64,000 nt of DNA from the NCBI GenBank assembly GCA_913057135.1, contig CAJXNM010000011.1:1-64000 (forward strand). Direction: 5' to 3'. The notes beneath the pieces are model-generated. The model saw only the letters and a list, made by a program, of their open reading frames with translations. It had not been told where the DNA came from and made no database searches. Of this stretch, positions 1 through 50,138 are shown piece after piece. This DNA comes from an uncultured Halieaceae bacterium. GTDB lineage: Bacteria; Pseudomonadota; Gammaproteobacteria; Pseudomonadales; Halieaceae. The first letter of the stretch is position 1. Each line of letters starts with the position of its first letter. A program made the translations under genes and the position numbers.

Positions 1-6
1 GTTCTT

Positions 7-780
7 GTGCCAGCCTTTGCTGCGGCGGCCGTCGCATGGCGCAGGCTTTTTTTCGGTTTGTTGGGCGCTGCGCTGGCTCTTCTGAACTTCAGCATAGGTG
101 GAGAGCGAATCGTCCTCGTCGGATTTCTGTTCGCGACCGTGGTCGCCATTGAGGTGCTAAGGGCGGAGCGCGGCAGTACGTTTCCTCTCTTCGGAGCGAC
201 CCTCAGTGCCCTGATTGCCCTACCAGTCGTAATGAACCAGTTCGGATCCTTTGACGATATCGTCTTTGATCTAACCCGCCGTCTTGGGCTTGTCCCAGCA
301 GCGCACATCGGTCATTACATAGAATTCTATGGTGCTCTCGGGCACACGTATTTTGCTCATGAAGTCCCAGCATTCATCTGGCCTTCAGCCGCGAAAGCCG
401 ACCCTGGATTGTTGGTCGGGGAATCACTTCGACCAGGAACCGAAATGAATGCCAATGCCGGACTCATCGCCAACGCGTATGCCTCTCTGGGCTTGCTAGG
501 AGTGATGGTCGTGGCAGCATTTTGCGCGGTTCTGCTGCGCTTCTTGGACCGTATCGCTTCAGTCCGTAACAGGGCGTTTGCCGTTGGCCTATTGGGCAGT
601 GCGTCAATGGCGTTGATCAATCGGTCATTCTTTACGGCATTACTTTCAGGCGGCATCGCGACAGCCGTCGGCATTGTTGCTGCATCGCCCGGTCCAGATC
701 GCTCGCTCAAGGGAATGAGGCAGACGCGTAATAGAGTCGAAGAGGTTATGCGCTTACCTAAGATTCGAGACGAAGGCTGA
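7..780 (+). CDS. O-antigen/polysaccharide polymerase-like membrane protein (Wzy-like), probably truncated at the window start
   Basis: Multi-TM hydrophobic protein next to a flippase and sugar-nucleotide genes; the open frame reaches the window edge. Confidence 0.55.
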   Translation: MPAFAAAAVAWRRLFFGLLGAALALLNFSIGGERIVLVGFLFATVVAIEVLRAERGSTFPLFGATLSALIALPVVMNQFGSFDDIVFDLTRRLGLVPAAHIGHYIEFYGALGHTYFAHEVPAFIWPSAAKADPGLLVGESLRPGTEMNANAGLIANAYASLGLLGVMVVAAFCAVLLRFLDRIASVRNRAFAVGLLGSASMALINRSFFTALLSGGIATAVGIVAASPGPDRSLKGMRQTRNRVEEVMRLPKIRDEG

Positions 781-862
781 AGTGCATTGGGGGAATCCAG
801 TCCCACCCATAACGTGATGTACTACCCCCTTACGGGCTCGAGGAGACACGGACGGAGTTTCC

Positions 863-2131
863 ATGTTGGGCAATGTCTCTCGACCGAAAAATGGGTTGTT
901 GCGCGGGTTCACTACTCTCTCAGCAGGAATCTTGCTTTCACAACTACTTCTCGTAGTGGCGACCCCGATCATCTCTCGTCTCTACTCAGTCACCCAGATA
1001 GGCGAGTACGCCGCCGTCGTAGCCGCCGCCACGAGCTTGGCACCGTTACTTACACTCGGACTCCCACGCCTGATCGTACCGGCCTCCAGCGATACCGAGG
1101 CAATGTACATTGCCTCGCGCGCGTTCCGACTCTCCATCGGGTTGAGCTCCTCTCTCTTCGTGCTCATGCTAGTGACGACGGTGGCTTCGGAACCTTTGAG
1201 TACTCCTTCATTCGGATCAGTTTGGCTCTGGCTTCCCGGCCTTGTTCTTGCGCAGTGCACCTTCTCTGTGCTTTTTGCCGTTGCCCTCCGGGGAAGGCAA
1301 TATAAATTGGCTGCGTGGAGGCCGCTGCTCCAAAACACCGTGATCGTAGCCACACAGGTGGGCCTGAGTTTGTCGGGACGAGGAGCCCACCTACTTGTTG
1401 TCGGTGAAACATTCGGACGCACCGTAGGCGTTGTTCTCCTTCTCAGGCCGTATTTCTTAGTCCGCAGATCCGTCCAGAAGCAAAAAGTGATCAGGTCCTT
1501 CTGGCGTTCCCATGGAGCCACCATTGCGCGAGTCTGGCCCGCAACAACGTTGGACGTAGTGGCTACGTCAGTGTGGGTGATAGCCGCTGCGTGGTGGTAC
1601 GGCGACCAGATTGCAGGCTACGTTGGCATGACTCAGAGAATTCTGGCAATCCCAGTTGCGCTCATCGGTGCTGCGTTGGGCCAGGCTATCCTGGCTGAGG
1701 TATCGCATTCGAGACGATCAAATGAATCGATCCCTAGCCTTAGGGCCCTCATCATTGGCCTGACGGGACTTGCAGTCGCTGTGACTCTGATCTTGACGTT
1801 TATGGGTCCCTGGCTCTTCGCCACGGTGTTAGGAGCAGATTGGCGGCCCGCCGGTGAGTTTGCCCAACTCATCGCCGTGCCTGCTGCGATTGGCCTGCTT
1901 TGGAACCCTCTCAGCACTCTTCTCCTAGCACTCGAGAAGTGGGGTGCAATGCTCCTGATCGCGGCCCTTCGAGTATCCGTTGGCCTTGGCCTTGGCTCAT
2001 TTGCCTACTTGGCGGGTGCGGACTGGTTCCTATCTCTCGCGCTGTTGGTCGCCGGGGGGGCTACGGCCCAAATCCTTGGTCTATATCTCATTGCGCGATC
2101 TGTCCGTAGCCTCAGGGCTCAAGCCCATTGA
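863..2131 (+). CDS. Polysaccharide flippase/Wzx-like transporter (MOP superfamily)
   Basis: 422 aa with ~12 TM-like segments and N-term LLRGFTTLSAGILLSQLLLVVATPIISRLYS, typical of Wzx/RfbX-like proteins. Confidence 0.8.
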   Translation: MLGNVSRPKNGLLRGFTTLSAGILLSQLLLVVATPIISRLYSVTQIGEYAAVVAAATSLAPLLTLGLPRLIVPASSDTEAMYIASRAFRLSIGLSSSLFVLMLVTTVASEPLSTPSFGSVWLWLPGLVLAQCTFSVLFAVALRGRQYKLAAWRPLLQNTVIVATQVGLSLSGRGAHLLVVGETFGRTVGVVLLLRPYFLVRRSVQKQKVIRSFWRSHGATIARVWPATTLDVVATSVWVIAAAWWYGDQIAGYVGMTQRILAIPVALIGAALGQAILAEVSHSRRSNESIPSLRALIIGLTGLAVAVTLILTFMGPWLFATVLGADWRPAGEFAQLIAVPAAIGLLWNPLSTLLLALEKWGAMLLIAALRVSVGLGLGSFAYLAGADWFLSLALLVAGGATAQILGLYLIARSVRSLRAQAH

Positions 2132-2171
2132 GGCAGGAGAGGACGGGACACTCACCCTTCCGTCCTAAGTA

Positions 2172-3584
2172 TCAACCAGGCCGACCAAGCGCGACAACTC
2201 GGGCTGGAGCCCAAAGTTCGTCCCGTGCAATCCGGCGCCCATCAACAAGCACCTCAATACCCGGAATGTCGACGGCGCCCCAATTTCGGTACTCTTCATG
2301 CGCGGTTTGAATTATGGCCCCGCGAGCTGGTTCACTTTGGCGAAAGGGTTCTAGTCCGAGCGCTCTGATCTCGTCTTCTGTGTACATGGGATCGTGCACC
2401 GCTGCTATGCCCCCCCTTTTGCTCACTTCGTCCACCACAGGAAAGACGCCGGAGAATGCTGTTTCCCGAACACCTCCTCGATATGCAGCACCGAGGATGG
2501 CAACCCTCTTGCCTTGCATGCCATTCAGGGCCGAGTTCAGTACCGAGACGGCGTATGCAGGCATTTCGGAGTTGGCTTCGCGAGCTGTGCGCACGATTGA
2601 GGCCTCCGGATCATTCCAAAGGTAAAGGCGGGGGTAGACCGGGATGCAATGACCACCTACGGCCACTCCCGGTTGGTGAATGTGGCTAAACGGCTGGGAG
2701 TTGCAGGCTTCAATTACGTTGTAGATGTCAAGCCCAACACGGTCCGCATATCGCGCGAACTGATTGGCGAGGCCTATGTTTACATCGCGATAGGTCGTCT
2801 CGGCGAGCTTTGCGAGTTCCGCCGCTTCTGCTGATCCCAAGTCCCATACTCCGTTTTCCCTTTCCAGATCAGCTCGAGGGTCAAAGTCTAGTACGGCCTC
2901 GTAAAACTCTACGGCTCGCTCCGCGCTGGCTGGGTTGGTACCCCCCACCAGTTTGGGGTATCGGCGAAGGTCTTCAAACACCCTTCCCGTAAAGACCCGC
3001 TCTGGACTGAACGCTATGAAGATGTCGCGACCTGCCACGAGACCCGATTCAGTCTCCAACATCGGGGCAAGCCGTTTTCGCGTGGTCCCGACTGGCAGCG
3101 TGGTCTCAAAGCTGATCAGCGCTCCCCTTCTCAATCCTCGGCCGATGGCCGTGGCCGCTGCATCCATGGCACGGAAATCCGGAGCAGCCTCTTCATCGAC
3201 AAAGAGCGGAACGGCGACAACAACGACATCACTGACGCTCACGGCTGCACTGGTTTCGGTGGTGGCAGTTAGAAGCCCTGAAGTGACTACATCGCTCAAG
3301 TACTCTTGAAGCTGGTGCTCGCCTGGAAACGGTTCCGTTCCGCTCTTGACGAGATCAACGGTCGCGGCGTTGACATCTGCCCCGATCACCTCGTGACCCT
3401 TGCGAGCGTATTGAACGGCCAGCGGCAGGCCGATCTTCCCAAGCCCGACCACGGTGATTCTCCCCCGACTCCCTCCACCACCTCGACCGACGTTTTGGTC
3501 GCCGCACTTCGCAAGATCGCCTCTGCGACGACAACGGTTTGCAGTCCATCGCGCATCGTGACGATGTCGGAGGTCAGACCGCAA
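2172..3584 (-). CDS. UDP-N-acetyl-glucosamine/mannosamine 6-dehydrogenase family (WbpA/WecC-like); the 5' end is uncertain
   Basis: GRITVVGLGKIGLPLAVQYARKGHEVIGADVN Rossmann motif, FSPERVFTGRVFEDLRRYPKLVGG, AELAKLAETTYRDVNIGLANQFA. Real homology starts near 3461. Confidence 0.85.
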   Translation of the reverse strand: MRSDLRHRHDARWTANRCRRRGDLAKCGDQNVGRGGGGSRGRITVVGLGKIGLPLAVQYARKGHEVIGADVNAATVDLVKSGTEPFPGEHQLQEYLSDVVTSGLLTATTETSAAVSVSDVVVVAVPLFVDEEAAPDFRAMDAAATAIGRGLRRGALISFETTLPVGTTRKRLAPMLETESGLVAGRDIFIAFSPERVFTGRVFEDLRRYPKLVGGTNPASAERAVEFYEAVLDFDPRADLERENGVWDLGSAEAAELAKLAETTYRDVNIGLANQFARYADRVGLDIYNVIEACNSQPFSHIHQPGVAVGGHCIPVYPRLYLWNDPEASIVRTAREANSEMPAYAVSVLNSALNGMQGKRVAILGAAYRGGVRETAFSGVFPVVDEVSKRGGIAAVHDPMYTEDEIRALGLEPFRQSEPARGAIIQTAHEEYRNWGAVDIPGIEVLVDGRRIARDELWAPARVVALGRPG

Positions 3585-4477
3585 ACGGCGTCTCTCATAT
3601 TCTCGTGCTCTGTCCTGAGTGGCTCTGGCTTAGGAATGGCAAATCTGACGACATCACCTTCACTAACACCACGGAAGCGAGCAACATCGTCCCACTGAGT
3701 CGGGACCACCCCATTCGCATGGAACGTGAGGTCCGCGTGCAGCGTGTCGGCGACAAAGGCTCCCTTCTCTCCGGTAACAACCGTCATCCGCTCCTTGAAG
3801 GGTGAAAGCCAGTTAACTATGTGGTTAGTGATCGTGTCGTCGGAGAGGTGACCGACGACGGAGACGAGGTCCTCATGCTCCCGACCCGATCGATGAGCCA
3901 CTTGCGCGGCCACAGAAACGAAGTCGCTCTGAGCCACCCATGCCGTTAGGTCGATGTCATGCGTCGCAAGGTCCTTGACCACTCCAACGTCAGCGATGCG
4001 GTCAGGGAAGGGCCCCTGGCGACGCGTTGTGATCTGGAGGATGTCACCCAGATCACCGTTTGCCATTCGTGCACGGGCCTGCCGAAGGGCCGGGTTGAAG
4101 CGCTCGATGTGGCCAACGGCTCCGATCAGCGCCGCCTGCTCGAATGCCTCAGCCAGTCTTAGGGCGGAAGCACTGTCTTGAGCCAGTGGCTTTTCAACTA
4201 AGGCGTGCACACCCGCATCAGCCAATCGCAGTCCGATCTCTTCATGCTGAAGAGTGGGGACGGCGATGATGCAGTAATCGATTCCATGGTCGATTAGCGC
4301 ATCAAGGTCATCGAAAACAACTGCGCGGGCTTGCTTGGCATCAGGGTCGACGATGCCAACGAAGTCAACTCCTTCGAGCTCGGATAGAACACGGGCATGA
4401 TTACGACCCATGGCGCCGTGACCCACGAGCCCAGCTCTCAGATTTGGCACATCACGCACCCGCCCGTGCGACGTCAT
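3386..4477 (-). CDS. Gfo/Idh/MocA family oxidoreductase (WbpB-like)
   Basis: From MTSHGRV: LRAGLVGHGAMGRNHARVLSEL, ALVEKPLA, RIADVGVVKDLATHDIDL. The longer ORF to 4717 overlaps the upstream gene and is not needed. Confidence 0.82.
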   Translation of the reverse strand: MTSHGRVRDVPNLRAGLVGHGAMGRNHARVLSELEGVDFVGIVDPDAKQARAVVFDDLDALIDHGIDYCIIAVPTLQHEEIGLRLADAGVHALVEKPLAQDSASALRLAEAFEQAALIGAVGHIERFNPALRQARARMANGDLGDILQITTRRQGPFPDRIADVGVVKDLATHDIDLTAWVAQSDFVSVAAQVAHRSGREHEDLVSVVGHLSDDTITNHIVNWLSPFKERMTVVTGEKGAFVADTLHADLTFHANGVVPTQWDDVARFRGVSEGDVVRFAIPKPEPLRTEHENMRDAVCGLTSDIVTMRDGLQTVVVAEAILRSAATKTSVEVVEGVGGESPWSGLGRSACRWPFNTLARVTR

Positions 4478-5663
4478 TGACAGTGGTGACGATGAAATCA
4501 AGGTCCGCTTCAGTAAGTGATGGGTGAACCGGGAGGGACAGGCACTCGCGAGAAGCCGTCTCGGTGACTGGCAAGTGTTCTGATCGCGCAAAGGCGGGTA
4601 GTCGATGGTTGGGGATCGGGTAGTAGACCCCGGAGCCGACTCCCCTCTTTGCCAGTTCCCCCTGAAACCTGTCGCGGTCGTGCCCCGGCACACGAATCGT
4701 GTACTGGTGGTAAACATGTGAGGCTCCCGGCGCCACCGCGGGGATCACCACGCCCTGCAGATGCGAATCGAGGACCTTTGCATTCGATTGCCTTGCGGCG
4801 GTCCACTCCCCAAGTCGTCGGAGCTGAGCTCTACCTATGGCCGCGTGCAAGTCCGTCATGCGGTTGTTCAGGCCTGCAATCTCGTTCTCATAGCGCCGAT
4901 CCTGCCCCTGGTTACGCAGGAGACGCACACGCCTCGCCAGGTCAGCATCAGCCGTCACGACCATGCCGCCCTCCCCCGACGTCATGTTCTTGGTCGGATA
5001 GAACGAGAAGGAGCCCGCTAGTCCCCACGTGGCAACCGGTCGGTCGCGAAGCGCTGCCGCGTGGGCTTGGGCAGCATCCTCGATAAGGATCAGGCCGTGA
5101 CGTTCGCAGATGGCCTTGAGTCGGTCAACCGCCGCGGGGTGGCCGTACAAGTGCACCGGCATCACCGCCCGGGTTCTCGGGGTTATCGCAGCCTCGACGG
5201 CCTCAGGATCCAGGCAGTAATGATCGGGCTCGATGTCCGCGAATACGGGTGTGGCCCCTGTCATGGCTACAGAGTTTCCCGTGGCCGCGAACGTAAATGA
5301 CGGGACGATCACCTCATCACCCACGCCGATCGATGCGGTAATCGCGCAGAAGATGCCTTCGGTTGCACCCGGCACTACCGTGACTTCAGTGGTGTCATCA
5401 ACAGCAACCCCACGATAGCGCTCTACTTGCGCCGCAATCGCTTCTCTCAGGGATGCCAGTCCAATCATCGGCGGATACTGTTGTGAGCTAGAGTTGGCAG
5501 CGTCCGATAACGCCGCCAACAAGGCCATTGGTGGCGAAAAATCAGGAAACCCCTGCGATAGATTGAGAGCCCCTGTCTCTGCCGCAAGCGCTGACATGGT
5601 GGTGAAAATGGTTGTGCCCACCAGAGGAAGTTTTGATTGCATGGTAATGGCGTGTCTGCTCAA
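4452..5663 (-). CDS. Hybrid aminotransferase: N-term methionine aminotransferase-like (class I/II) and C-term DegT/DnrJ/EryC1/StrS (WbpE/WecE-like)
   Basis: N-term SKLPLVGTTIFTTMSALAAETGALNLSQGFPDF...VPGATEGIF (YbdL-like) followed by GDEVIVPSFTFAATGNSVAMTGATPVFADIEPD...EDAAQAHAA...FYPTKNMTSGEGG (DegT). Confidence 0.85.
   Translation of the reverse strand: MSRHAITMQSKLPLVGTTIFTTMSALAAETGALNLSQGFPDFSPPMALLAALSDAANSSSQQYPPMIGLASLREAIAAQVERYRGVAVDDTTEVTVVPGATEGIFCAITASIGVGDEVIVPSFTFAATGNSVAMTGATPVFADIEPDHYCLDPEAVEAAITPRTRAVMPVHLYGHPAAVDRLKAICERHGLILIEDAAQAHAAALRDRPVATWGLAGSFSFYPTKNMTSGEGGMVVTADADLARRVRLLRNQGQDRRYENEIAGLNNRMTDLHAAIGRAQLRRLGEWTAARQSNAKVLDSHLQGVVIPAVAPGASHVYHQYTIRVPGHDRDRFQGELAKRGVGSGVYYPIPNHRLPAFARSEHLPVTETASRECLSLPVHPSLTEADLDFIVTTVNDVARAGA
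5302..5322. other. Probable recombination or assembly junction (GDEVIVP codons) between two aminotransferase families
   Basis: Family signature changes on either side of this motif, which both families share. Confidence 0.65.
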
Positions 5664-5687
5664 TGGGGTGCCGCTGTACAGAAGTGA

Positions 5688-6761
5688 TTAATGGTCAATC
5701 CACCGACGGGCGGGTCGCGAGCTGATTTGCGTCATCAGGGTATAACCGATGGTATCTGCAGCCTGCGCAAGTCGATCGATGCTGATGTGCTCACCCCACA
5801 GCTCGACGGCGCTGCCGATAGTGGCATTGGGGTGATCGGTAATGTCGACGGTCACCATATCCATTGATACCCGTCCAACCAGCGGACATTCATACCCGTC
5901 GACCCAAACGGGTGCGCCATTAGTCGCATGGCGTGGGTAGCCATCGCCATAACCCACTGGCACTGTGGCAATGTGACTAGGGCGCGGTGCAATCCAACGC
6001 CCCCCGTAGCCCACGCTGTCCCCTTGGGGAATGTGTCTAATCGCCATGATTTCCGAGCTGAGTGTCATAACGGGGCGAAGATCTGTCACGGGATGGGTGC
6101 ACGATTGGCCACCATACAGCATGTAGCCCGGGCGTACCCAATCGCCGCTCATGGGGAGTTCCCCAACAATGGCGGCAGAGTTGAGTGCGCTTGCGGTGGG
6201 CGAGGGCAACGCCTCCAGCGCGGCTCGCCACTGGCTTTTTTGATATTGGGTTAGGGCACTGTCCCCTTGTTCCGCGAATGCAAGGTGTGTCATCAATACG
6301 GTGTCTTGAAACCCCGCTTCAGTGAGCTGTGACCAGACAACAGGTAGCGCCTCTGCCCCGATGCCGAGTCTGTGCATGCCGGTGTCGAGTTTGAGCCACA
6401 CATTGCTTGTTGCTGGCGTCAGATGCTCGACTAGCCAGGGCAACTGATGCTCGCTATGCACAGCTGTCCATAGTGCCAATTCCTCTATCTTTTGGGCATC
6501 GGCTACATCAAAGGGACCTTCGAGCACCAAGATGGGCTGTTCAATACCCGCTTCTCGCAGGTTTTCGGCCTCTTCAACGTGGGCAACCGCGAATGCATCG
6601 ACCCATGGTGACAGGGTTTTGGCACAGGGGATGGCGCCATGGCCGTAGGCGTCGGCCTTGACACAGGCCATCAGGCGCTTGCCCTCGCTCAGACGCCGAG
6701 CGATTTGGGCATTGTGACGAAGGGCGTCAAGGTCGATGGAAACACAAGTTGGTCGGGGCAT
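5688..6761 (-). CDS. alr: Alanine racemase
   Basis: MPRPTCVSIDLDALRHNAQIARRL..MACVKADAYGHGA (PLP lysine motif), GYGDGYPR, VGRVSMDM. Confidence 0.92.
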   Translation of the reverse strand: MPRPTCVSIDLDALRHNAQIARRLSEGKRLMACVKADAYGHGAIPCAKTLSPWVDAFAVAHVEEAENLREAGIEQPILVLEGPFDVADAQKIEELALWTAVHSEHQLPWLVEHLTPATSNVWLKLDTGMHRLGIGAEALPVVWSQLTEAGFQDTVLMTHLAFAEQGDSALTQYQKSQWRAALEALPSPTASALNSAAIVGELPMSGDWVRPGYMLYGGQSCTHPVTDLRPVMTLSSEIMAIRHIPQGDSVGYGGRWIAPRPSHIATVPVGYGDGYPRHATNGAPVWVDGYECPLVGRVSMDMVTVDITDHPNATIGSAVELWGEHISIDRLAQAADTIGYTLMTQISSRPARRWIDH

Positions 6762-6768
6762 AGGAGAA

Positions 6769-7626
6769 TTAGACGCTGAATCGATAGCGATCGAACAAAC
6801 GCTGAGCCTTTTGCCAAAACGGACCGGGTTCGCCATCGCCCACCATGCGGCCATCTAGCTGTGTCACCGGTACAACCTCTTTGGTTGAGCTGGTTAACCA
6901 AATCTCGTCGGCGCTACAAACCTCTTCCCGGGTGACGACTCGCTCGATGAAGGGTATATCGCCGTGGGTTCGCAATATATCGATAAGCATGTTTCGGGTG
7001 ATGCCGGGTAGCTTTTGCTGATCGAGGGGCGGCGTCAGAACCTGTCCATTGATGACCACAAAGACGTTGCAGGCGGCGGCCTCGGTGAGCTCATCGGCAT
7101 CGTTAAAGAGGAGAATTTCGTCGGCGCCCCGATCGGCCCCTTCCATCATGTGCAGCACATTACCCAGTAACGCCACTGACTTTATATGGCAGCGTTGCCA
7201 GCGTTGGTCGGTACCCGTAACGGCGCTGTAGCGGGTCACTGTTGTGGCATCGCCGGGATTTCGTGGACTGATGGCAAAGGGATAGGCAAAGACCGTGGGT
7301 TCACAGTGCTCTGGATAGCGGTGATTGCGCACTGGGGCCGTCCCGCGGGTTACCTGCAAATACACCGCCGCATCAGACCAAGGATTGGCGTGGAGCAGCT
7401 CCCTTAACATGGACTGCCATTGCTCTACGCTAAACGGGTTGTTGATGGCAATGGCAGCAAGGCCTGAAGCCAGTCTTGCCATATGCCGCTCGAAGCCGAC
7501 CATGTTTCGGTCGTAGCTTGGGATGACCTCGTAGATACCGTCACCAAACAGGAAGCCCCGGTCCATGGGGGAGATACGGGCTTCTTCAAGGGGTAGAAAA
7601 CGGCCGTTAAGGTAGGCGGTTGTCAT
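6769..7626 (-). CDS. dat: D-amino acid transaminase (class IV aminotransferase)
   Basis: MTTAYLNGRFLPLEEARISPMDRGFLFGDGIYEVIP, IKSVALLGNVL (Lys), TEAAACNVF, LPGITR. Confidence 0.85.
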   Translation of the reverse strand: MTTAYLNGRFLPLEEARISPMDRGFLFGDGIYEVIPSYDRNMVGFERHMARLASGLAAIAINNPFSVEQWQSMLRELLHANPWSDAAVYLQVTRGTAPVRNHRYPEHCEPTVFAYPFAISPRNPGDATTVTRYSAVTGTDQRWQRCHIKSVALLGNVLHMMEGADRGADEILLFNDADELTEAAACNVFVVINGQVLTPPLDQQKLPGITRNMLIDILRTHGDIPFIERVVTREEVCSADEIWLTSSTKEVVPVTQLDGRMVGDGEPGPFWQKAQRLFDRYRFSV

Positions 7627-7627
7627 G

Positions 7628-8509
7628 TTAGTTTGCGCCCTCTGACGCCGATGCAAAGAGTTGTTGGATGGCCGCAATGAGTTGCTGTCCGGCTTCCGGT
7701 GGTAATCCGTCCTCGGTGGCAATAGCTTCGTGGGTCACACCATCAACCGCGCCCACTTGTACCAATCGCTCAAGGAGGTCCTGGGCGTTCAACCACGCCA
7801 GCACCTCAGGTACGCCCTGGAGATATTCCGTCATCGCAATTAAGCCATAAGCAGCCCAGTTTGAAACATCTGCGACCAGTAATTCGTCACAACTTGAGGC
7901 TGCGGGTCGAATATCCAGGGTGTTTAGAACATCACCGGCCTTGGCCATACCAATTTCATTGCCGCCATCACCGATGGCGATCACCGGACAAGACAGTAAC
8001 TCAACGTAAGGCTCTGCGGGGCGGCAGACATCGGTGATGTCACGCCCACGTATGTTGTAGTAGCGACCATCCGCGGCGGCACCGGGTCGCTCAATCATAA
8101 TTAACAACGTGGGCTTGAGGTCTTCGGTCATTGCCCGAGCGTCTCGGGCTGCCTGATCTCGGTCAAAGGAGCTCAAACTATAGGCTCTGACGCCGGGCCC
8201 TAACGCTCGTAGCAATGGATCACCCGCCAGCAGCCAGGGCGTTAATCCGAGCTGCTCACAGTACGCATAGAGGGCCAAAGCGCCCGCCGGGCCGTCGGTC
8301 TCAAAGGTGTCAGCAACAGGGAAGCCGGTGCAGATGACGACGTTATCGGCGGCGGCCAGCAGTAATTGCGCGCCATTTAAAAAGTTGTCGCTGTCGAGGC
8401 AGCGTTGCACCCCAGCCATGCCCCGGGGATTTAAGGCAACTAATAGCTCTGCCAGGGCGCCGCTGAGTTGAGAAGCCCTCGGCGATGTCGATAAAAAGTC
8501 ACCCATCAA
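7628..8509 (-). CDS. DUF4392 protein (D-glutamate cyclase-like C-terminal domain)
   Basis: ICTGFPVADTFETDGPAGALALY and AIGDGGNEIGMAKAG motifs. Confidence 0.8.
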   Translation of the reverse strand: MMGDFLSTSPRASQLSGALAELLVALNPRGMAGVQRCLDSDNFLNGAQLLLAAADNVVICTGFPVADTFETDGPAGALALYAYCEQLGLTPWLLAGDPLLRALGPGVRAYSLSSFDRDQAARDARAMTEDLKPTLLIMIERPGAAADGRYYNIRGRDITDVCRPAEPYVELLSCPVIAIGDGGNEIGMAKAGDVLNTLDIRPAASSCDELLVADVSNWAAYGLIAMTEYLQGVPEVLAWLNAQDLLERLVQVGAVDGVTHEAIATEDGLPPEAGQQLIAAIQQLFASASEGAN

Positions 8510-9462
8510 ACGGTCTCTAGCGCCAGTTCGCGCTCATAGTTTTGATGCAGCCACAATACGCGATCGGCGTCATGTGGCGATAGGGGTTCCAATCGACAGT
8601 GAGTATAGGGCTCGGCCTGCGCCAGCCGAGCACAGTCGACCGACAGCACAGCCCCTATTTTGGGATAGCCGCCGATGGTTTGACGATCGTTCAATAAAAC
8701 AATGGGGTCGCCATCGGGCGGTACTTGTATTGCACCTAAGCAGGTTGCCTCGGACCATAAGCGGGAGATGCCAGTCATAATCGGATTGCCCTCAAGTCGC
8801 ACCCCCATTCGATTGCGCTGATGGGATACTTGAAACCTGTTACTCACCAGTGCCTCTCGGCTGGACGCGGGTAACAGTGAGTACTGAAATCCTGGAATAA
8901 AGCGCAAGAGCAATTGATCCGACTTGTGTGCCTTGGAACGATTAGCCCGGTAATAGGTAGGTTCTGCCGCCGGTGGCAGCACCGGTAGTTGCGCGCCGTC
9001 ATAGAGTCGGTCGCCATTCAGTCCTCCCAAACCCTCGCGGACCACGGTCGAGCGGCTGCCGAGCACCGGTGGGGTTGCGATACCGCCGCTGATACAGACA
9101 TAGCTATAGCTGCCGCCCTGGGCCCTGCCTATGACCAGGCGCTGGCCCCGCATCAAGCGCAGTGTGGTGTTCATGGGCACGGTTTGGTCATCGATGCTTA
9201 GGCCTACGATGGCGCCCGTTACCGCCAATACCAGGTCGATGTCAGCCGATAGTTCGACGCCACCGAGGGTCAATTCCAGTGCTGCGCTTTCGAAGCTGTT
9301 ACCAACCAAGCGCTGCCCGAGACGAAAGCTGAAACCGTCGATAGCACCACCTGTGGTCAATCCAAGGTGCAGTTGTCCGAATCGCCCTTCGTCCTGGATA
9401 GTGGTGCTTAGACCTGCTCGGTGGATGGTCAGGGTGCCACCGCTGTCGGGGGTCAAATGCAA
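8506..9462 (-). CDS. pxpC: 5-oxoprolinase subunit C / biotin-dependent carboxyltransferase family (KipA-like)
   Basis: LSTTIQDEGRFGQLHLGLTTGGAIDGFSFRLGQRLVGN; QVSHQRNRMGVRLEG. Confidence 0.88.
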   Translation of the reverse strand: MHLTPDSGGTLTIHRAGLSTTIQDEGRFGQLHLGLTTGGAIDGFSFRLGQRLVGNSFESAALELTLGGVELSADIDLVLAVTGAIVGLSIDDQTVPMNTTLRLMRGQRLVIGRAQGGSYSYVCISGGIATPPVLGSRSTVVREGLGGLNGDRLYDGAQLPVLPPAAEPTYYRANRSKAHKSDQLLLRFIPGFQYSLLPASSREALVSNRFQVSHQRNRMGVRLEGNPIMTGISRLWSEATCLGAIQVPPDGDPIVLLNDRQTIGGYPKIGAVLSVDCARLAQAEPYTHCRLEPLSPHDADRVLWLHQNYERELALETV

Positions 9463-10145
9463 CCTCCTAATTCAATAAATCGTTCCCTGTCGATGGCGTC
9501 GAAGATGACGGTATCGCCGACATTGATGCGTGTCGGTGGTTCGGTGTTCAGATCAAATAGAGGGATAGGGCAGCGTCCTATCAGTTGCCACCCCCCCGGT
9601 GACGTCCGTGGATACACTGCGGTTTGGGTGTCGGCGATACCGACACTGCCGGTGGCTACGGCTTGGCGGGGCGTTGCGTGGCGGGGGCACGCTAGTCGCT
9701 CATCGACTTCGCCCAAATAACAGAACCCCGGGGCGAAGCCATTGGCATACGCTCGGTAAGGTCGACCCGCATGCAGTTCGATCAGTTCGGCTATGGTCAG
9801 GCTGTTGCGCCGGGCCAGTGACTCGATATCGGGTCCCGATTCGATGGCGTACCAAACCGGTAGGTGGATGATGTTTCCCCCAGGCGTAGAAGAGGGCGCT
9901 TCGAACCCGTCATAGGTGGATAGCCAGTGCTTTAGAGGTTCGCGCAGTGCTGCGCCGGTTGGCCAAAACACCGTGAGGGACTGATAGGCCAGCACCGTAT
10001 CTTCAATCGCGCTACCAAAGTCCGCTATTAGGGCATCCTTGAGCGCCACTAGTGCTGCTGTGGTAGACGCACTGGGCGCGCGTGCAAGGCTAATACGAAG
10101 TCCTCGCTCGCCGGCCATATCCCAGGTGATAGGGTCAATGGACAC
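9453..10145 (-). CDS. pxpB: 5-oxoprolinase subunit B (KipI-like)
   Basis: YANGFAPGFCYLGEVDERLACPRHATPRQAVATGSVGIADTQTAVYPRTSPGGWQLIGR. Confidence 0.9.
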   Translation of the reverse strand: MSIDPITWDMAGERGLRISLARAPSASTTAALVALKDALIADFGSAIEDTVLAYQSLTVFWPTGAALREPLKHWLSTYDGFEAPSSTPGGNIIHLPVWYAIESGPDIESLARRNSLTIAELIELHAGRPYRAYANGFAPGFCYLGEVDERLACPRHATPRQAVATGSVGIADTQTAVYPRTSPGGWQLIGRCPIPLFDLNTEPPTRINVGDTVIFDAIDRERFIELGGCI

Positions 10146-10154
10146 GGTTTTTAC

Positions 10155-10898
10155 TCAATCGACATGACGTTTAAAGGCCGACCGAATCGCCTGCACCATG
10201 GCCACCGCCTCAGCGCTGTCCCCATGCACGCACAGGGTATCCGCCTGAAGATTCAGCGCCCTACCTTTGGCGCTGGTCAGCTGTCCCCGAGCGATAGCTA
10301 GGGCTTGTGCCACCGCATCATCACGAGTCAGTACAGCACCGGGTTGATCTCTGGGTAGTAGTAAGCCGTTGTTGCCGTAACTTCGATCGGCAAAGGCCTC
10401 AAAGCGCAATTTAAGCCCGTATTGCACCGCAAGTTCCACGGTGTCGGCATCGTTAGGCGTCGCTAGCACCACAAGATCGAGGGGGCGATGCCACGCCGCA
10501 ACCGCACGCATCACATCAGCCCGCAATGCAATATCCTTTGCCATGTCGTTATACAGGGCCCCGTGGGGTTTGACGTAGGTCACTTTGAGTCGTTGGGTGC
10601 GAGCCATGCCCTCGAGGGCTGCCATTTGATAGTGCAGGGTATCGATGAGGGCTTGGCCCCGAAGATGCATCGAGCGCCGTCCAAAACCTTGTAAATCGGG
10701 GTAGGACACATGCGCACCAATCTCAACCCGATGGGTCTTCGCGAGTTGCAGCGTTGCGCGTATCACCGAGGGATCCCCCGCATGAAAACCACAGGCGATG
10801 TTGGCGGCATCGATGAACGGCATGACTGCACTGTCGTCACCCATTCGCCACGCGCCAAAGCTCTCTCCAAGGTCACAGTTGAGGGTCAGTTGGTTCAT
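10155..10898 (-). CDS. pxpA: 5-oxoprolinase subunit A (LamB/YcsF family)
   Basis: LNCDLGESFGAWRMGDD, ANIACGFHAGDP, IGAHVSYPDLQGFGRR. Confidence 0.93.
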   Translation of the reverse strand: MNQLTLNCDLGESFGAWRMGDDSAVMPFIDAANIACGFHAGDPSVIRATLQLAKTHRVEIGAHVSYPDLQGFGRRSMHLRGQALIDTLHYQMAALEGMARTQRLKVTYVKPHGALYNDMAKDIALRADVMRAVAAWHRPLDLVVLATPNDADTVELAVQYGLKLRFEAFADRSYGNNGLLLPRDQPGAVLTRDDAVAQALAIARGQLTSAKGRALNLQADTLCVHGDSAEAVAMVQAIRSAFKRHVD

Positions 10899-12313: not shown

Positions 12314-13153
12314 ATGCCCGTCCATGCCAGTGATCCACGTCCCATTCGTCGCTTCAGCGATGTACAGCTTGCCACCCCTGCCAGTGCCGAATTCGATCCG
12401 GTTGTGGTCGAGGCGCCATTGGCCATCGCCAACAGCGAGACGGTCCTGGCAACCACCATGCGGACACCGGGGCATGATGAGGAATTGGCGGTGGGTTGGC
12501 TGGTGAGTGAATCTGACATTGTTGACTCAACTGACCTACTCGATGTCAAACGTGTTGGCGCCTCTCAGTTTCGCCAATGGGGTGTCATTGAAGAAGCGGT
12601 TGATACCGTGGTCATTGAACTGGCTAATCACTGCCGAATGCCCAAACCCCGTGCTTACCTCACCTCCAGCTCCTGTGGTGTCTGCAGTGCCGATGTCTTG
12701 GAGTCGGTGCCATCGCCGTCGGCACCGCTCCAGTCACCGGGTTGGACGCTGCGTCCCGACAAAGTGCATTCACTGATCGATGCAATGCGTGAGCAGCAGC
12801 GCATGTTTGATTTGACCGGGGCTCTTCACGCGGCAGCGTTGACCTCCAATACCGGTGAATTATTGGTCGTGCGTGAGGATGTGGGTCGCCACAACGCGGT
12901 CGATAAAGTCATCGGACATGCGTTTATGGCACAGCAATTTCCGTTAACCGATCAACTGTTAGTGGTCAGTGGCCGGGTGTCCTACGAGATTGTGGCTAAA
13001 GCGCTGCGCGCCTGTGTTGCGGGTATTGTCGCCGTGTCTGGCCCGACAACCCTCGCTGTTGATTTGGCACGCCACCACGGACTGTTGCTCATCGGTTTTG
13101 CTCGAGATCAACGCATCAACGTCTACGCCGGAGAAGGAATGCTTCACTCATGA
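12314..13153 (+). CDS. fdhD: Formate dehydrogenase accessory sulfurtransferase
   Basis: TMRTPGHDEELAVGWLVSE, SSSCGVCS, ALHAAALTSNTGELLVVREDVGRHNAVDKVIG; SD GGGGAG upstream. Confidence 0.93.
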   Translation: MPVHASDPRPIRRFSDVQLATPASAEFDPVVVEAPLAIANSETVLATTMRTPGHDEELAVGWLVSESDIVDSTDLLDVKRVGASQFRQWGVIEEAVDTVVIELANHCRMPKPRAYLTSSSCGVCSADVLESVPSPSAPLQSPGWTLRPDKVHSLIDAMREQQRMFDLTGALHAAALTSNTGELLVVREDVGRHNAVDKVIGHAFMAQQFPLTDQLLVVSGRVSYEIVAKALRACVAGIVAVSGPTTLAVDLARHHGLLLIGFARDQRINVYAGEGMLHS

Positions 13154-13650
13154 CGTGCACAAGCCGCTGGCCAGTCTGGGATTCGGTTGTAGCAAGACAG
13201 TTGGTGACTGCCATCGCCGAGCGCCACGCGGGCCCTGTGCTGATGTGTCTACAGGCCATTCAAGGGCATTTTGGTTATGTGCCCGAGGGCGCTACCCCTA
13301 TCGTTGCCGACGTGTGCAATGTGTCCCGGGCGGATGTGCATGGGGTGCTGACGTTCTACGCCGATTTACGAACGTCACCGCCGCCACCTGTGCCGGTGCG
13401 GCTCTGTGCCGCAGAGGCCTGCCAGGCAGTGGGTGCTCGCGCGCTCAAGGGCCAGTGGCAGGCTACCTGTGAGCTCGACGCCGAACTCGCCGCCTTAACC
13501 GGCGTCGACGAACCCATTTTCTGTCTTGGGAACTGCGCGCTGGGGCCCGCCGCTGTGGTCGACGGCGAACTGATGGGGCGAGTGACCGTAGAACGCCTGC
13601 GAGCAGCGGTGTTGGCTCGTGCAGAACAAGACTCGGAGCAGTCAGTATGA
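13150..13650 (+). CDS. fdsG: NAD-dependent formate dehydrogenase gamma subunit (NuoE-like 2Fe-2S)
   Basis: CLQAIQGHFGYVPEGA; VRLCAAEACQAVGA; FCLGNCALGPAAVVDGELMG. Confidence 0.88.
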   Translation: MTCTSRWPVWDSVVARQLVTAIAERHAGPVLMCLQAIQGHFGYVPEGATPIVADVCNVSRADVHGVLTFYADLRTSPPPPVPVRLCAAEACQAVGARALKGQWQATCELDAELAALTGVDEPIFCLGNCALGPAAVVDGELMGRVTVERLRAAVLARAEQDSEQSV

Positions 13651-15215
13651 GCGTCTGGTTTGTGCCAAAAGATGCCGCGGCTAAGTCTGTCGGCGCCGAC
13701 CAAATAGCCGAGCGACTCATCGCCCAGGGCGAGGTGGTTATCCGCACAGGCAGTCGCGGCTTACTCTGGTTGGAGCCGCTGGTGGAGTGGAGTGACGACC
13801 GGTACGGCGACCGCGTCGGCTGGTGCAATGTCACTGCAGAGCAGTGTCTTGATGTCTTGCCTACAAGCAGCGATGGCAATTTTCTGGGGGCAGTTGATGA
13901 CCTCGACTATCTGGCGCGTCAACAGCGTTGGATTTTTGAGCGTGTCGGCATTATTGATCCCCTCGACGGGGACGATTTTTTATATCGAGGTGGGTTGGCG
14001 GGTTTAAAGCGGGCGCTGGCTATGACGCCTAACGATGTGGTCGAGGCTATTGTTGCGTCGGGGCTAAGAGGCCGGGGTGGTGCGGGTTTCCCCGCGGGTA
14101 TCAAATGGCGCACGGTAGCGGCCCAGGAGCCCGTTGCCCACGCTGGTTCAGGCGCCGGTGCGGCCAAGCACAAGTACATTTGTGTCAACGCCGACGAGGG
14201 GGACAGCGGCACCTTCGCCGATCGGATGCTGATGGAAGGTGACCCCTTTTGTCTCATTGAAGGCATGGTGATTGCCGCTTGGGCAGTCGGTGCAGATCTC
14301 GGTATTGTGTATTTACGCTCCGAGTACCCCGATGCCATTGCAACCCTTGAACAGGCCCTTGAACAAGCCCGCGAGCGCGGCTGGTTGGGCGCCAATATTC
14401 TGGGTAGTGGCTTTGGCTTTGATATCGAGATTCGAATAGGTGCAGGCTCTTACGTTTGCGGTGAAGAGACCGCAATGCTCGAGAGCATCGAAGGGCGGCG
14501 GGGTATGGTCCGTGTGAAGCCCCCTTTGCCCGCTATCAAAGGGCTATTTGGAACGCCTACTGTCATCAATAACGTACTGACCATGGCCAGCGTACCGTCC
14601 ATTATGGCGCGAGGCCCCGAGGCTTACGCGGCGCTGGGTCATGGGCGCTCTTGCGGTACACAAGTGTTCCAGCTGGCGGGGAATATTGCCCGGGGCGGTA
14701 TTGTTGAAACTGCCTTTGGGGTCACGGCCCGCGCCCTGGTTCACGATTTCGGGGGCGGTACTCGCTCGGGAAGGCCGGTGCGTGCGGTGCAGACCGGTGG
14801 TCCTCTGGGACCTTACCTGGCTGCGGATGAGCTCGATGTGCCTATGGCCTACGAAGCGCTGGCCGAGGCCGGAGGTATGCTTGGCCACGGTGGTCTGGTG
14901 GTATTCGACGACACGGTCGATATGCTTGAGCAGGCGCGATTCGCCATGGAATTTTGCGCCGAGGAGTCCTGTGGCAAATGCACGCCCTGCCGTATTGGTG
15001 CTGTGCGCGGTGTTGAGGTGCTTGAGCGCATTGCGGCGGGTGATGATGCGATGCAGCAGCAGGTACTGCTGAGAGATCTTTGCGAAGTCATGGAAATGGG
15101 GTCCCTTTGCGCCATGGGCGGGCTCACCCCTAAACCCGTACTCAGCGCGCTTAATACCTTCTCTGAGGATTTTGACCGTGCCGGCAGCAAACTCATTGTG
15201 CGAAGCGGAGGTTAG
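13647..15215 (+). CDS. fdsB: NAD-dependent formate dehydrogenase beta subunit (NuoF-like)
   Basis: GLRGRGGAGFPAGIKW, NADEGDSGTFADRMLMEGDP, GAGSYVCGEETAMLESIEGRRG, ESCGKCTPCRIG. Confidence 0.93.
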   Translation: MSVWFVPKDAAAKSVGADQIAERLIAQGEVVIRTGSRGLLWLEPLVEWSDDRYGDRVGWCNVTAEQCLDVLPTSSDGNFLGAVDDLDYLARQQRWIFERVGIIDPLDGDDFLYRGGLAGLKRALAMTPNDVVEAIVASGLRGRGGAGFPAGIKWRTVAAQEPVAHAGSGAGAAKHKYICVNADEGDSGTFADRMLMEGDPFCLIEGMVIAAWAVGADLGIVYLRSEYPDAIATLEQALEQARERGWLGANILGSGFGFDIEIRIGAGSYVCGEETAMLESIEGRRGMVRVKPPLPAIKGLFGTPTVINNVLTMASVPSIMARGPEAYAALGHGRSCGTQVFQLAGNIARGGIVETAFGVTARALVHDFGGGTRSGRPVRAVQTGGPLGPYLAADELDVPMAYEALAEAGGMLGHGGLVVFDDTVDMLEQARFAMEFCAEESCGKCTPCRIGAVRGVEVLERIAAGDDAMQQQVLLRDLCEVMEMGSLCAMGGLTPKPVLSALNTFSEDFDRAGSKLIVRSGG

Positions 15216-15220
15216 CTGCG

Positions 15221-18007
15221 ATGAATAGCGTCCAGCAATTTGACCCGGCCACCGACCTGGGTACACCCGGGGTGTTGTCCGACGCCGTCGTGAATGTCGT
15301 CATCGATGGTATTGAGATACAAGTGCCCGAGGGCACCTCTGTCATGCGTGCGGCGGCGATCGCGGGAGCGCCTGTGCCGAAGTTATGCGCCACCGAGCAA
15401 CTTGAGGCGTTCGGTTCCTGTCGGCTGTGCTTGGTCGAGATTGAGGGGCGGCGGGGCACTCCTGCCGCATGTACCACCCTGTGTGAACCCGGCATGTCGG
15501 TGCGCACTCAGAGCAGCCAGCTTGATCGTTTACGCAAGGGGGTTATGGAGCTGTACATCTCCGATCACCCCCTCGATTGTTTGACCTGTTCAGCGAACGG
15601 TGATTGTGAACTACAGGATATGGCCGGTGTGGTCGGTCTGCGAACGGTTCGCTACGGTGAAGGTGATAATCATCTGACTGCGCCCACGGATGCCTCGAAT
15701 CCCTATTTTAGCTTTGATGCGAGTAAGTGCATTGTCTGCAGCCGTTGCGTGCGTGCCTGTGACGAGGTGCAGGGCACCTTTGCTCTAACCATCGCCGGAC
15801 GTGGCTTTGACTCCCGAGTATCGCCGAGCGAGGAGCAGGCATTTTTCGACAGTGAGTGTGTGTCCTGTGGTGCCTGCGTACAAGCCTGTCCAACCGCTAC
15901 CTTGCAAGAGAAGCGGGTTATCGATGTCGGCGTCCCCACCAGGCAGGTGAAAACCACCTGCGCTTATTGCGGTGTGGGCTGCTCATTCGTCGCCGAGATG
16001 AAGGGCAATGAAGTGGTGCGGATGGTGCCCGACAAAACAGGCGGCGCCAACGCGGGTCACTCCTGCGTGAAAGGGCGTTTTGCTTGGGGTTACGCCAGCC
16101 ATGCCGATCGCATCACCGAGCCAATGATTCGTGAGCACAGGGAAGATAGTTGGCAGGTCGTGTCATGGGAGCAGGCCATTGCCTTCGCCGCAGAGCGCTT
16201 TCAAACGATTCAGCGGGTCCATGGCACCGATGCGATCGGTGGTATTACTTCTTCCCGCTGCACCAACGAGGAAGTCTACGTGGTGCAAAAAATGGTGCGC
16301 GCGGCCTTTGGCACCAATAATGTCGACACCTGTGCGCGGGTGTGTCATTCACCGACCGGGTATGGGCTTAAGCAGACATTTGGCACCAGTGCAGGTACCC
16401 AGGACTTTGCATCGATCGATGAGGCCGATGCGATCATGGTCATCGGCGCTAATCCCACCGACGCACATCCTGTATTTGGTTCGCGTATGAAGCAGCGCCT
16501 GCGACAGGGTGCTGATTTGATTGTGATTGATCCACGTGCCACCGATTTAGTGCGCTCGCCACACATTGTGGCCAAGCACCACTTGCCCCTGATGCCGGGC
16601 ACCAATGTGGCGGTGTTGAATGCCATGGCTCATGTGGTCGTTACCGAGGACTTGGTGGCCGACGCCTTTGTTGCCGAGCGTTGTGACGCCACCTCATTTG
16701 CCCATTGGAAAGCGTTTGTTGCCCTGCCTGAAAATAGCCCCGAAGCTATCGCCGAGTTGGCCGGCTTGAGTCCAGAGAGCATTCGGCACGCGGCAAGAAC
16801 CTATGCGAGCGCGCACAACGGTGCCATTTATTACGGGCTAGGCGTCACCGAACACTCCCAGGGGTCCACTATGGTGATGGCAATGGCCAACCTTGCGATG
16901 GCCACTGGCAACATTGGTCGACGGGGGGTTGGTGTTAATCCGCTTCGAGGTCAGAACAATGTGCAGGGTGCCTGCGACATGGGTTCATTCCCCCACGAGT
17001 TTGCGGGTTACCGGCACGTATCCGATGACAGTGTTCGACAGCAATTCGCCGATATTTGGGGCGTCTCATTACGTGAAGACCCCGGTATGCGTATTCCGAA
17101 CATGCTTGACGGCGCCATTGCCGGTCATTTTCGGGGGCTCTACGTACAGGGCGAAGACATAGCACAGTCAGATCCCAATACCCATCACGTTACCGCCGCG
17201 TTGCAAGCAATGGATTGCGTGGTGGTTCAAGACCTGTTCCTCAACGAAACAGCAAAGTACGCCCACGTTTTTTTACCGGGCACCTCGTTCCTAGAGAAAG
17301 ACGGTACGTTCACCAATGCGGAGCGGCGCATCAATCGCGTTCGTCCCGTCATGCCGCCTCGCTCGGGTAAAGCCGAGTGGCAGGTAACCTGTGATCTCAG
17401 CGCTGCGATGGGCTATCCCATGGACTACCCCAACAGTGCAGCGATCATGGATGAGATCGCCGCACTGACACCTACCTTCGCAGGGGTTTCATTCAGTTAC
17501 CTAGACAAGGTCGGCAGTGTTCAATGGCCTTGCAACGACAGCGCACCTTTGGGTACCCCAATCATGCACGAGCAGCGGTTTGTTCGAGGCAGCGGTCAGT
17601 TTATGACTACCCCCTATGTACCCACCGATGAGCGAACCACCCGCAAATACCCCTTAGTGCTCACGACCGGCCGTATTTTGAGTCAGTACAACGTGGGCGC
17701 TCAAACCCGCCGTACTGATAATCAGCGTTGGCACGGGGAGGATCTTCTCGACATTCACGAGTCCGATGCGCAGCTTCGAGGTATCGCAAATGGTGACTGG
17801 ATCGAGGTGGCCAGTCGAGCTGGCACAACTCGGTTGCGAGCAAGAATTTCGTCGGCCATCCCCGCCGGGGTGGTTTACACCACCTTCCATCATCCGGTGA
17901 GTGGCACTAACGTGATCACGACCGATAACTCCGATTGGGCGACTAACTGCCCTGAATACAAAGTGACCGCGGTCGAAGTCCGTCCCGCTGGGGGCATGTC
18001 CCCATGA
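15221..18007 (+). CDS. fdsA: Formate dehydrogenase alpha subunit (Mo/W-bisMGD, Cys-containing)
   Basis: 2Fe-2S and 4Fe-4S N-term, TTCAYCGVGCSF, CARVCHSPTGYGLKQTFG, GATPTDAHP-type and RGQNNVQGACDMG motifs. Confidence 0.94.
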   Translation: MNSVQQFDPATDLGTPGVLSDAVVNVVIDGIEIQVPEGTSVMRAAAIAGAPVPKLCATEQLEAFGSCRLCLVEIEGRRGTPAACTTLCEPGMSVRTQSSQLDRLRKGVMELYISDHPLDCLTCSANGDCELQDMAGVVGLRTVRYGEGDNHLTAPTDASNPYFSFDASKCIVCSRCVRACDEVQGTFALTIAGRGFDSRVSPSEEQAFFDSECVSCGACVQACPTATLQEKRVIDVGVPTRQVKTTCAYCGVGCSFVAEMKGNEVVRMVPDKTGGANAGHSCVKGRFAWGYASHADRITEPMIREHREDSWQVVSWEQAIAFAAERFQTIQRVHGTDAIGGITSSRCTNEEVYVVQKMVRAAFGTNNVDTCARVCHSPTGYGLKQTFGTSAGTQDFASIDEADAIMVIGANPTDAHPVFGSRMKQRLRQGADLIVIDPRATDLVRSPHIVAKHHLPLMPGTNVAVLNAMAHVVVTEDLVADAFVAERCDATSFAHWKAFVALPENSPEAIAELAGLSPESIRHAARTYASAHNGAIYYGLGVTEHSQGSTMVMAMANLAMATGNIGRRGVGVNPLRGQNNVQGACDMGSFPHEFAGYRHVSDDSVRQQFADIWGVSLREDPGMRIPNMLDGAIAGHFRGLYVQGEDIAQSDPNTHHVTAALQAMDCVVVQDLFLNETAKYAHVFLPGTSFLEKDGTFTNAERRINRVRPVMPPRSGKAEWQVTCDLSAAMGYPMDYPNSAAIMDEIAALTPTFAGVSFSYLDKVGSVQWPCNDSAPLGTPIMHEQRFVRGSGQFMTTPYVPTDERTTRKYPLVLTTGRILSQYNVGAQTRRTDNQRWHGEDLLDIHESDAQLRGIANGDWIEVASRAGTTRLRARISSAIPAGVVYTTFHHPVSGTNVITTDNSDWATNCPEYKVTAVEVRPAGGMSP

Positions 18008-49340: not shown

Positions 49341-50138
49341 TTATAACAACCCTGGAATGACCGCTTTGCGCTCTTTGGGGTAGTCGTCAAAGTTCTTATG
49401 GAACCAACGGTGGGTGTAGATTGCCCGGGGAATGAGGTTGCCCGCGGTCATGGCCAGTACGAATACCGCGCCCAAGTTCCAGGTCATAATGGCAAAGCCC
49501 AAGAATGACAGGATTTCCCCAAAGTACTGGGGGCAGGTGAGCCAGCGGAAGCCGCCCCCGTAGGGGATTTTATAGCGGGGTTCATCGGGAGACGGGTTCG
49601 GTGAGCGCAGATTACGAAGAATGGAATCTGAGTGGATGTTGAGTGTGAAACCGGCTACATAAATGCAAAGACCGACAATAAAACGTGGATCCGTGAACCA
49701 AGCCTCTGTGTATTGGGTACCGAATTCAGTCAGGTAGGCGGCGTTGAAATACCCGTGTAAGAACAGGGTAATCCAGCCTGCTATGACGACATTCAGCGAG
49801 AAACTGGCGGTAGAGCCCGGCTGGACACGCATGCGCAATGGATTGATCACCGCGCGGTTGCTGTAGTGAATCATCCAGATGACTAAAAAGAACAGCGGTA
49901 CCGTCTGGTCGGCGTTTTTGCCCATAAAAAATACGATTGGGAACACCAGCAGACCTGGCAATTCCATGATGATCCAGCCGGTTTTGGCACCCAACTTGAT
50001 CCCTTTGGCGCGTTTACCCCCAAATCGGCCGCCGTAGGCAGCGGTACCAAAAAAACTGCCGACACAGACCAAGGTAGCGTAGAGAAAACCCACAATGAGA
50101 AGTGTGTCGTAAAGGGTGTTGCCGGTATACCAAGCCAT
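49341..50138 (-). CDS. 3-oxo-5-alpha-steroid 4-dehydrogenase / DUF1295-like membrane reductase
   Basis: Multi-TM; GFTLNIHSDSILRNLRSP..YKIPYGGGFRWLTCPQYFGEILSFLGFAIMTW; C-term RAIYTHRWFHKNFDDYPKERKAVIPGLL. Confidence 0.9.
   Translation of the reverse strand: MAWYTGNTLYDTLLIVGFLYATLVCVGSFFGTAAYGGRFGGKRAKGIKLGAKTGWIIMELPGLLVFPIVFFMGKNADQTVPLFFLVIWMIHYSNRAVINPLRMRVQPGSTASFSLNVVIAGWITLFLHGYFNAAYLTEFGTQYTEAWFTDPRFIVGLCIYVAGFTLNIHSDSILRNLRSPNPSPDEPRYKIPYGGGFRWLTCPQYFGEILSFLGFAIMTWNLGAVFVLAMTAGNLIPRAIYTHRWFHKNFDDYPKERKAVIPGLL

Follow-up and report, generated by a model that had tools for sequence, protein, structure and literature searches.

A hybrid aminotransferase reading frame near a contig end of a Halieaceae genome is very probably an assembly chimera of native and actinobacterial gene parts

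The Locus

The window analysed here, a stretch of 64,000 nucleotides from an uncultured Halieaceae bacterium, comprises bases 1–64,000 of a contig of 68,378 bp (C11) in an assembly of 103 contigs and 2.86 Mb, whose fragmentation suggests a metagenome bin. Close to its left end lies an open reading frame on the minus strand (4452–5663) that encodes 403 residues when counted from an upstream TTG; the starts of its homologs instead favor initiation at the ATG at 5642 (residue 8). The two parts of this frame belong to different aminotransferase families, and the features of the region are as follows.

5319–5663, minus strand: 5' part (about 115 codons) of a native methionine/glutamine-type class I aminotransferase gene, with 50–70% identity to homologs and a genome-typical composition
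5304–5321, minus strand: GDEVIV junction, common to both aminotransferase families and the probable join point, from codon comparison
4452–5318, minus strand: 3' part of an actinobacterial DegT/DnrJ/EryC1/StrS sugar aminotransferase gene without its own N-terminus (PF01041; best relatives in Actinomycetota, 60–72% identity)
3468–4478, bounds approximate, minus strand: Gfo/Idh/MocA-type oxidoreductase (UDP-GlcNAc 3-dehydrogenase-like) of the foreign tail, from Pfam and NCBIfam; adjoins degT downstream in actinobacterial loci
2172–3471, bounds approximate, minus strand: UDP-sugar dehydrogenase (NDP-sugDHase) of the foreign tail, from Pfam and NCBIfam
863–2131, plus strand: polysaccharide flippase-like protein of the foreign tail, from a weak PF01943 match below the cut-off
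7–780, plus strand: membrane-protein-like open reading frame at the contig end that may encode a polysaccharide polymerase, called as an open reading frame and without a family match

Upstream of the hybrid, the minus strand at 5688–10898 carries genes for an alanine racemase, a D-amino-acid transaminase, a D-glutamate-cyclase-like protein and apparent 5-oxoprolinase subunits, the last recognized by eye, and this run suggests a D-amino acid/5-oxoproline degradation cluster. An alanine racemase beside the aminotransferase was not found in the short flanks of relatives, a result that is neutral with respect to the origin of the hybrid. Farther along, 12314–18007 holds a gene for an FdhD-like protein followed by what appears by eye to be an NAD-dependent formate dehydrogenase operon.

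Two Aminotransferase Families in One Reading Frame

In the N-terminal part of the hybrid, the Pfam family Aminotran_1_2 (PF00155, 4.7e-16) matches residues 33–198 and the NCBIfam methionine aminotransferase model PRK09082 (3e-52) matches residues 3–168, where the match to this 386-position model ends, leaving the methionine aminotransferase domains incomplete. DegT_DnrJ_EryC1 (PF01041, 9.9e-105) covers residues 93–395, and several DegT families of NCBIfam match from about residue 94 onward. This DegT domain is also incomplete, as the match begins only at position 41 of the 360-position profile and the N-terminal part is absent. The two Pfam matches overlap at residues 93–198 because fold-type-I enzymes are distantly homologous, and an intact methionine-type homolog likewise receives a weak DegT match at residues 92–200.

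Comparison with individual proteins gives the same division. The N-terminal part is 50–70% identical to full-length methionine-type aminotransferases of relatives and aligns with them as far as residue 112–115, and the C-terminal part is 60–72% identical to actinobacterial DegT proteins in alignments that begin at residue 101–112. A codon-by-codon comparison with actinobacterial degT genes and native-type genes places the switch at about residues 110–121, around GDEVIV. The bases around GGTGATGAGGTGATCGT fit both families in this codon comparison, for which relatives with at most 72% protein identity stood in for the parent of the tail.

As judged from the sequence, the two-family makeup of the frame is confirmed, and chance is far exceeded. 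The original prediction, which had assigned residues ~8–115 to the class I/II methionine aminotransferases (YbdL/MtnE-like) and the rest to the DegT/DnrJ/EryC1/StrS family, with the change at GDEVIV, is borne out by these matches; the motifs that it described, including EDAAQAH and the catalytic-lysine motif, are also correct.

An Actinobacterial Tail at the Contig End

Base 1 of the window is also base 1 of the contig; therefore, the foreign part (1–5318) forms the last 5.3 kb of the contig and is not an internal island. The join lies 5.3 kb from the contig end.

The best 80 loci for the DegT part all come from records whose names point to Actinomycetota or a member of this phylum. In 77 of them, degT is immediately followed by a Gfo/Idh gene, and a UDP-sugar dehydrogenase homolog occurs within the fetched flank in 41; the methionine-type N-terminal part occurs in none of them. 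A scan of genome contigs for the parental actinobacterium did not find it, and nothing exceeded 72% protein identity. Overall, the tail is an ordinary fragment of an actinobacterial polysaccharide cluster and is not novel.

The composition of the two arms was compared with that of stretches from 20 contigs of the same genome. The tetranucleotide distance of 1–5300 from the genome is 5.67, versus a mean of 3.18, and only 1.4% of the genome's own fragments lie as far away; the distance of 5319–10618 is a typical 3.10. The dinucleotide signature of 1–5300 is an outlier as well (2.9% of own fragments as far). Thus, the two arms differ in both taxonomy and composition, the left being actinobacterial and atypical and the right genome-typical, as would be expected of a chimera. 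However, the GC content is nearly equal (0.584 in the tail versus about 0.575 in the genome), which counts against a chimera, and the arms are not separable by GC content alone.

The Missing Remainder of the Native Gene

The genome was searched with an intact homolog of 385 residues from a same-genus genome (G005, the closest relative). Residues 4–214 of this query match C11, with only distant DegT similarity beyond about residue 115, and residues 262–385 match, with 60% identity, positions 49,621–49,992 (minus strand) of a second contig, C21, which is 50,611 bp long and ends about 0.6 kb farther on. The genome yielded two other matches, both to distant paralogs, and the search found no further close copy of either piece in the assembly. 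The piece on C21 represents the C-terminal 124 codons of the native gene, and the approximately 146 codons between the two pieces are absent from the assembly.

Directly downstream of the aminotransferase piece on C21 lies a carbon-nitrogen hydrolase gene (CN_hydrolase), whose product, from its pairing with the aminotransferase, would be an omega-amidase. The closest relative carries the intact 385-residue aminotransferase followed by the same hydrolase, which is 71% identical. Another 31 loci from relatives have the N- and C-terminal pieces in the usual order and at the usual distance, and in 26 of the 31 the hydrolase falls within the short fetched stretch after the aminotransferase. The rest of the interrupted native gene, together with its amidase neighbor, is therefore located near another contig end, as a chimera would imply. 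The native gene itself is an ordinary methionine/glutamine-type (MtnE/YbdL-like) aminotransferase gene paired with an amidase, and is not novel.

The aminotransferase piece on C21 in turn breaks off at about 50,008, and the final 0.6 kb of the contig is unrelated to it and has a GC content of 0.494. This segment (C21:50009–50611, equivalent to L131:12010–12612) is a probable second misjoin and contains an open frame for a basic protein of 148 residues; the searches found no second copy of it in the genome, no significant Pfam family and no polysaccharide gene.

Origin of the Hybrid

Two readings had been offered in the original prediction, namely a natural recombinant enzyme at a boundary of horizontal transfer and a chimeric contig whose parts were linked through sequence common to both. 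The latter is strongly supported by the position of the tail at the contig end, its actinobacterial affiliation and the presence of the gene's remainder near the end of C21 beside its usual neighbor; the former has found no support.

We consider it very probable that the hybrid is an assembly chimera that unites the 5' part of the native aminotransferase gene with the 3' part of an actinobacterial degT. Under this scheme, the assembly would have broken inside the native methionine-type gene, and the N-terminal piece near the end of C11 would have been extended, through the shared stretch encoding GDEVIV, into a 5.3-kb fragment of an actinobacterial polysaccharide cluster. The C-terminal piece and the amidase would have been left near the end of C21 and wrongly extended with roughly 0.6 kb of DNA unrelated to them. 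The breaks in this one gene lie close to the ends of two contigs, each of which continues into DNA unrelated to the gene, and one of these continuations begins at the conserved coding stretch that the two genes have in common; failed assembly across the gene is the simplest reading. We infer that the join used a shared k-mer and arose not in the cell but while the library was prepared or the reads were assembled.

It is unlikely, to a degree that leaves it little weight, that an actinobacterial polysaccharide island was truly inserted into the genome with deletion of about 146 codons, such that the tails of C11 and C21 mark the two ends of the island, with the in-frame hybrid as a by-product. 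Both gene pieces do adjoin non-native DNA, and foreign DNA combined with such a deletion would leave the same two pieces; moreover, contigs may stop inside islands that assemble poorly. However, an insertion of this kind needs an in-frame, same-strand fusion at a structurally equivalent residue, and it was not seen in any same-genus relative searched. The two supposed ends are also unlike each other, as the C21 tail differs from the C11 tail in GC content (0.494 versus 0.584) and lacks both a polysaccharide gene and a significant Pfam family.

Recombination in the cell through short homology at the shared motif, in which an actinobacterial degT and the resident class I aminotransferase gene gave rise in frame to a folded, functional hybrid in this lineage, is extremely improbable. 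The reading frame is indeed open, and the join connects corresponding positions of two homologous fold-type-I enzymes, which could let the product fold. However, the hybrid and the terminal piece of the native gene each sit close to a contig end, on two different contigs, and the same full-length architecture did not appear in any examined hit from relatives, the 80 actinobacterial loci or the listed records of a plasmid collection.

The assembly chimera thus remains the preferred reading, and each of its parts can be placed beside a known system. Residues 1–115 of the hybrid are the ordinary N-terminus of a methionine aminotransferase (PRK09082/NF006569, YbdL/MtnE-like, PF00155) whose C-terminal third is found on C21; unlike members of that family, the gene on C11 is truncated and passes into another family. 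Residues 112–403 resemble the DegT/DnrJ/EryC1/StrS proteins (PF01041) of actinobacterial polysaccharide clusters, with EDAAQAH, the catalytic-lysine region and a Gfo/Idh gene directly downstream, but the N-terminal part proper to DegT is lacking. Metagenomic assembly is well known to produce chimeric contigs, which have been studied in detail (PMC3100316). The present case resembles such contigs in its switch to DNA of a different organism, which occurs here at a short stretch common to both, and differs in that the join happens to stay in frame between distantly related enzymes.

Implications

Caution is warranted because assembly alone can yield an in-frame and structurally plausible enzyme fusion when two genes have a short motif in common at corresponding positions. 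Such chimeras can be tested for simply, and without reads, by looking near other contig ends for the rest of the interrupted gene. For this Halieaceae genome, claims of horizontal transfer or of polysaccharide genes should be made only once the 5.3-kb tail has been excluded.
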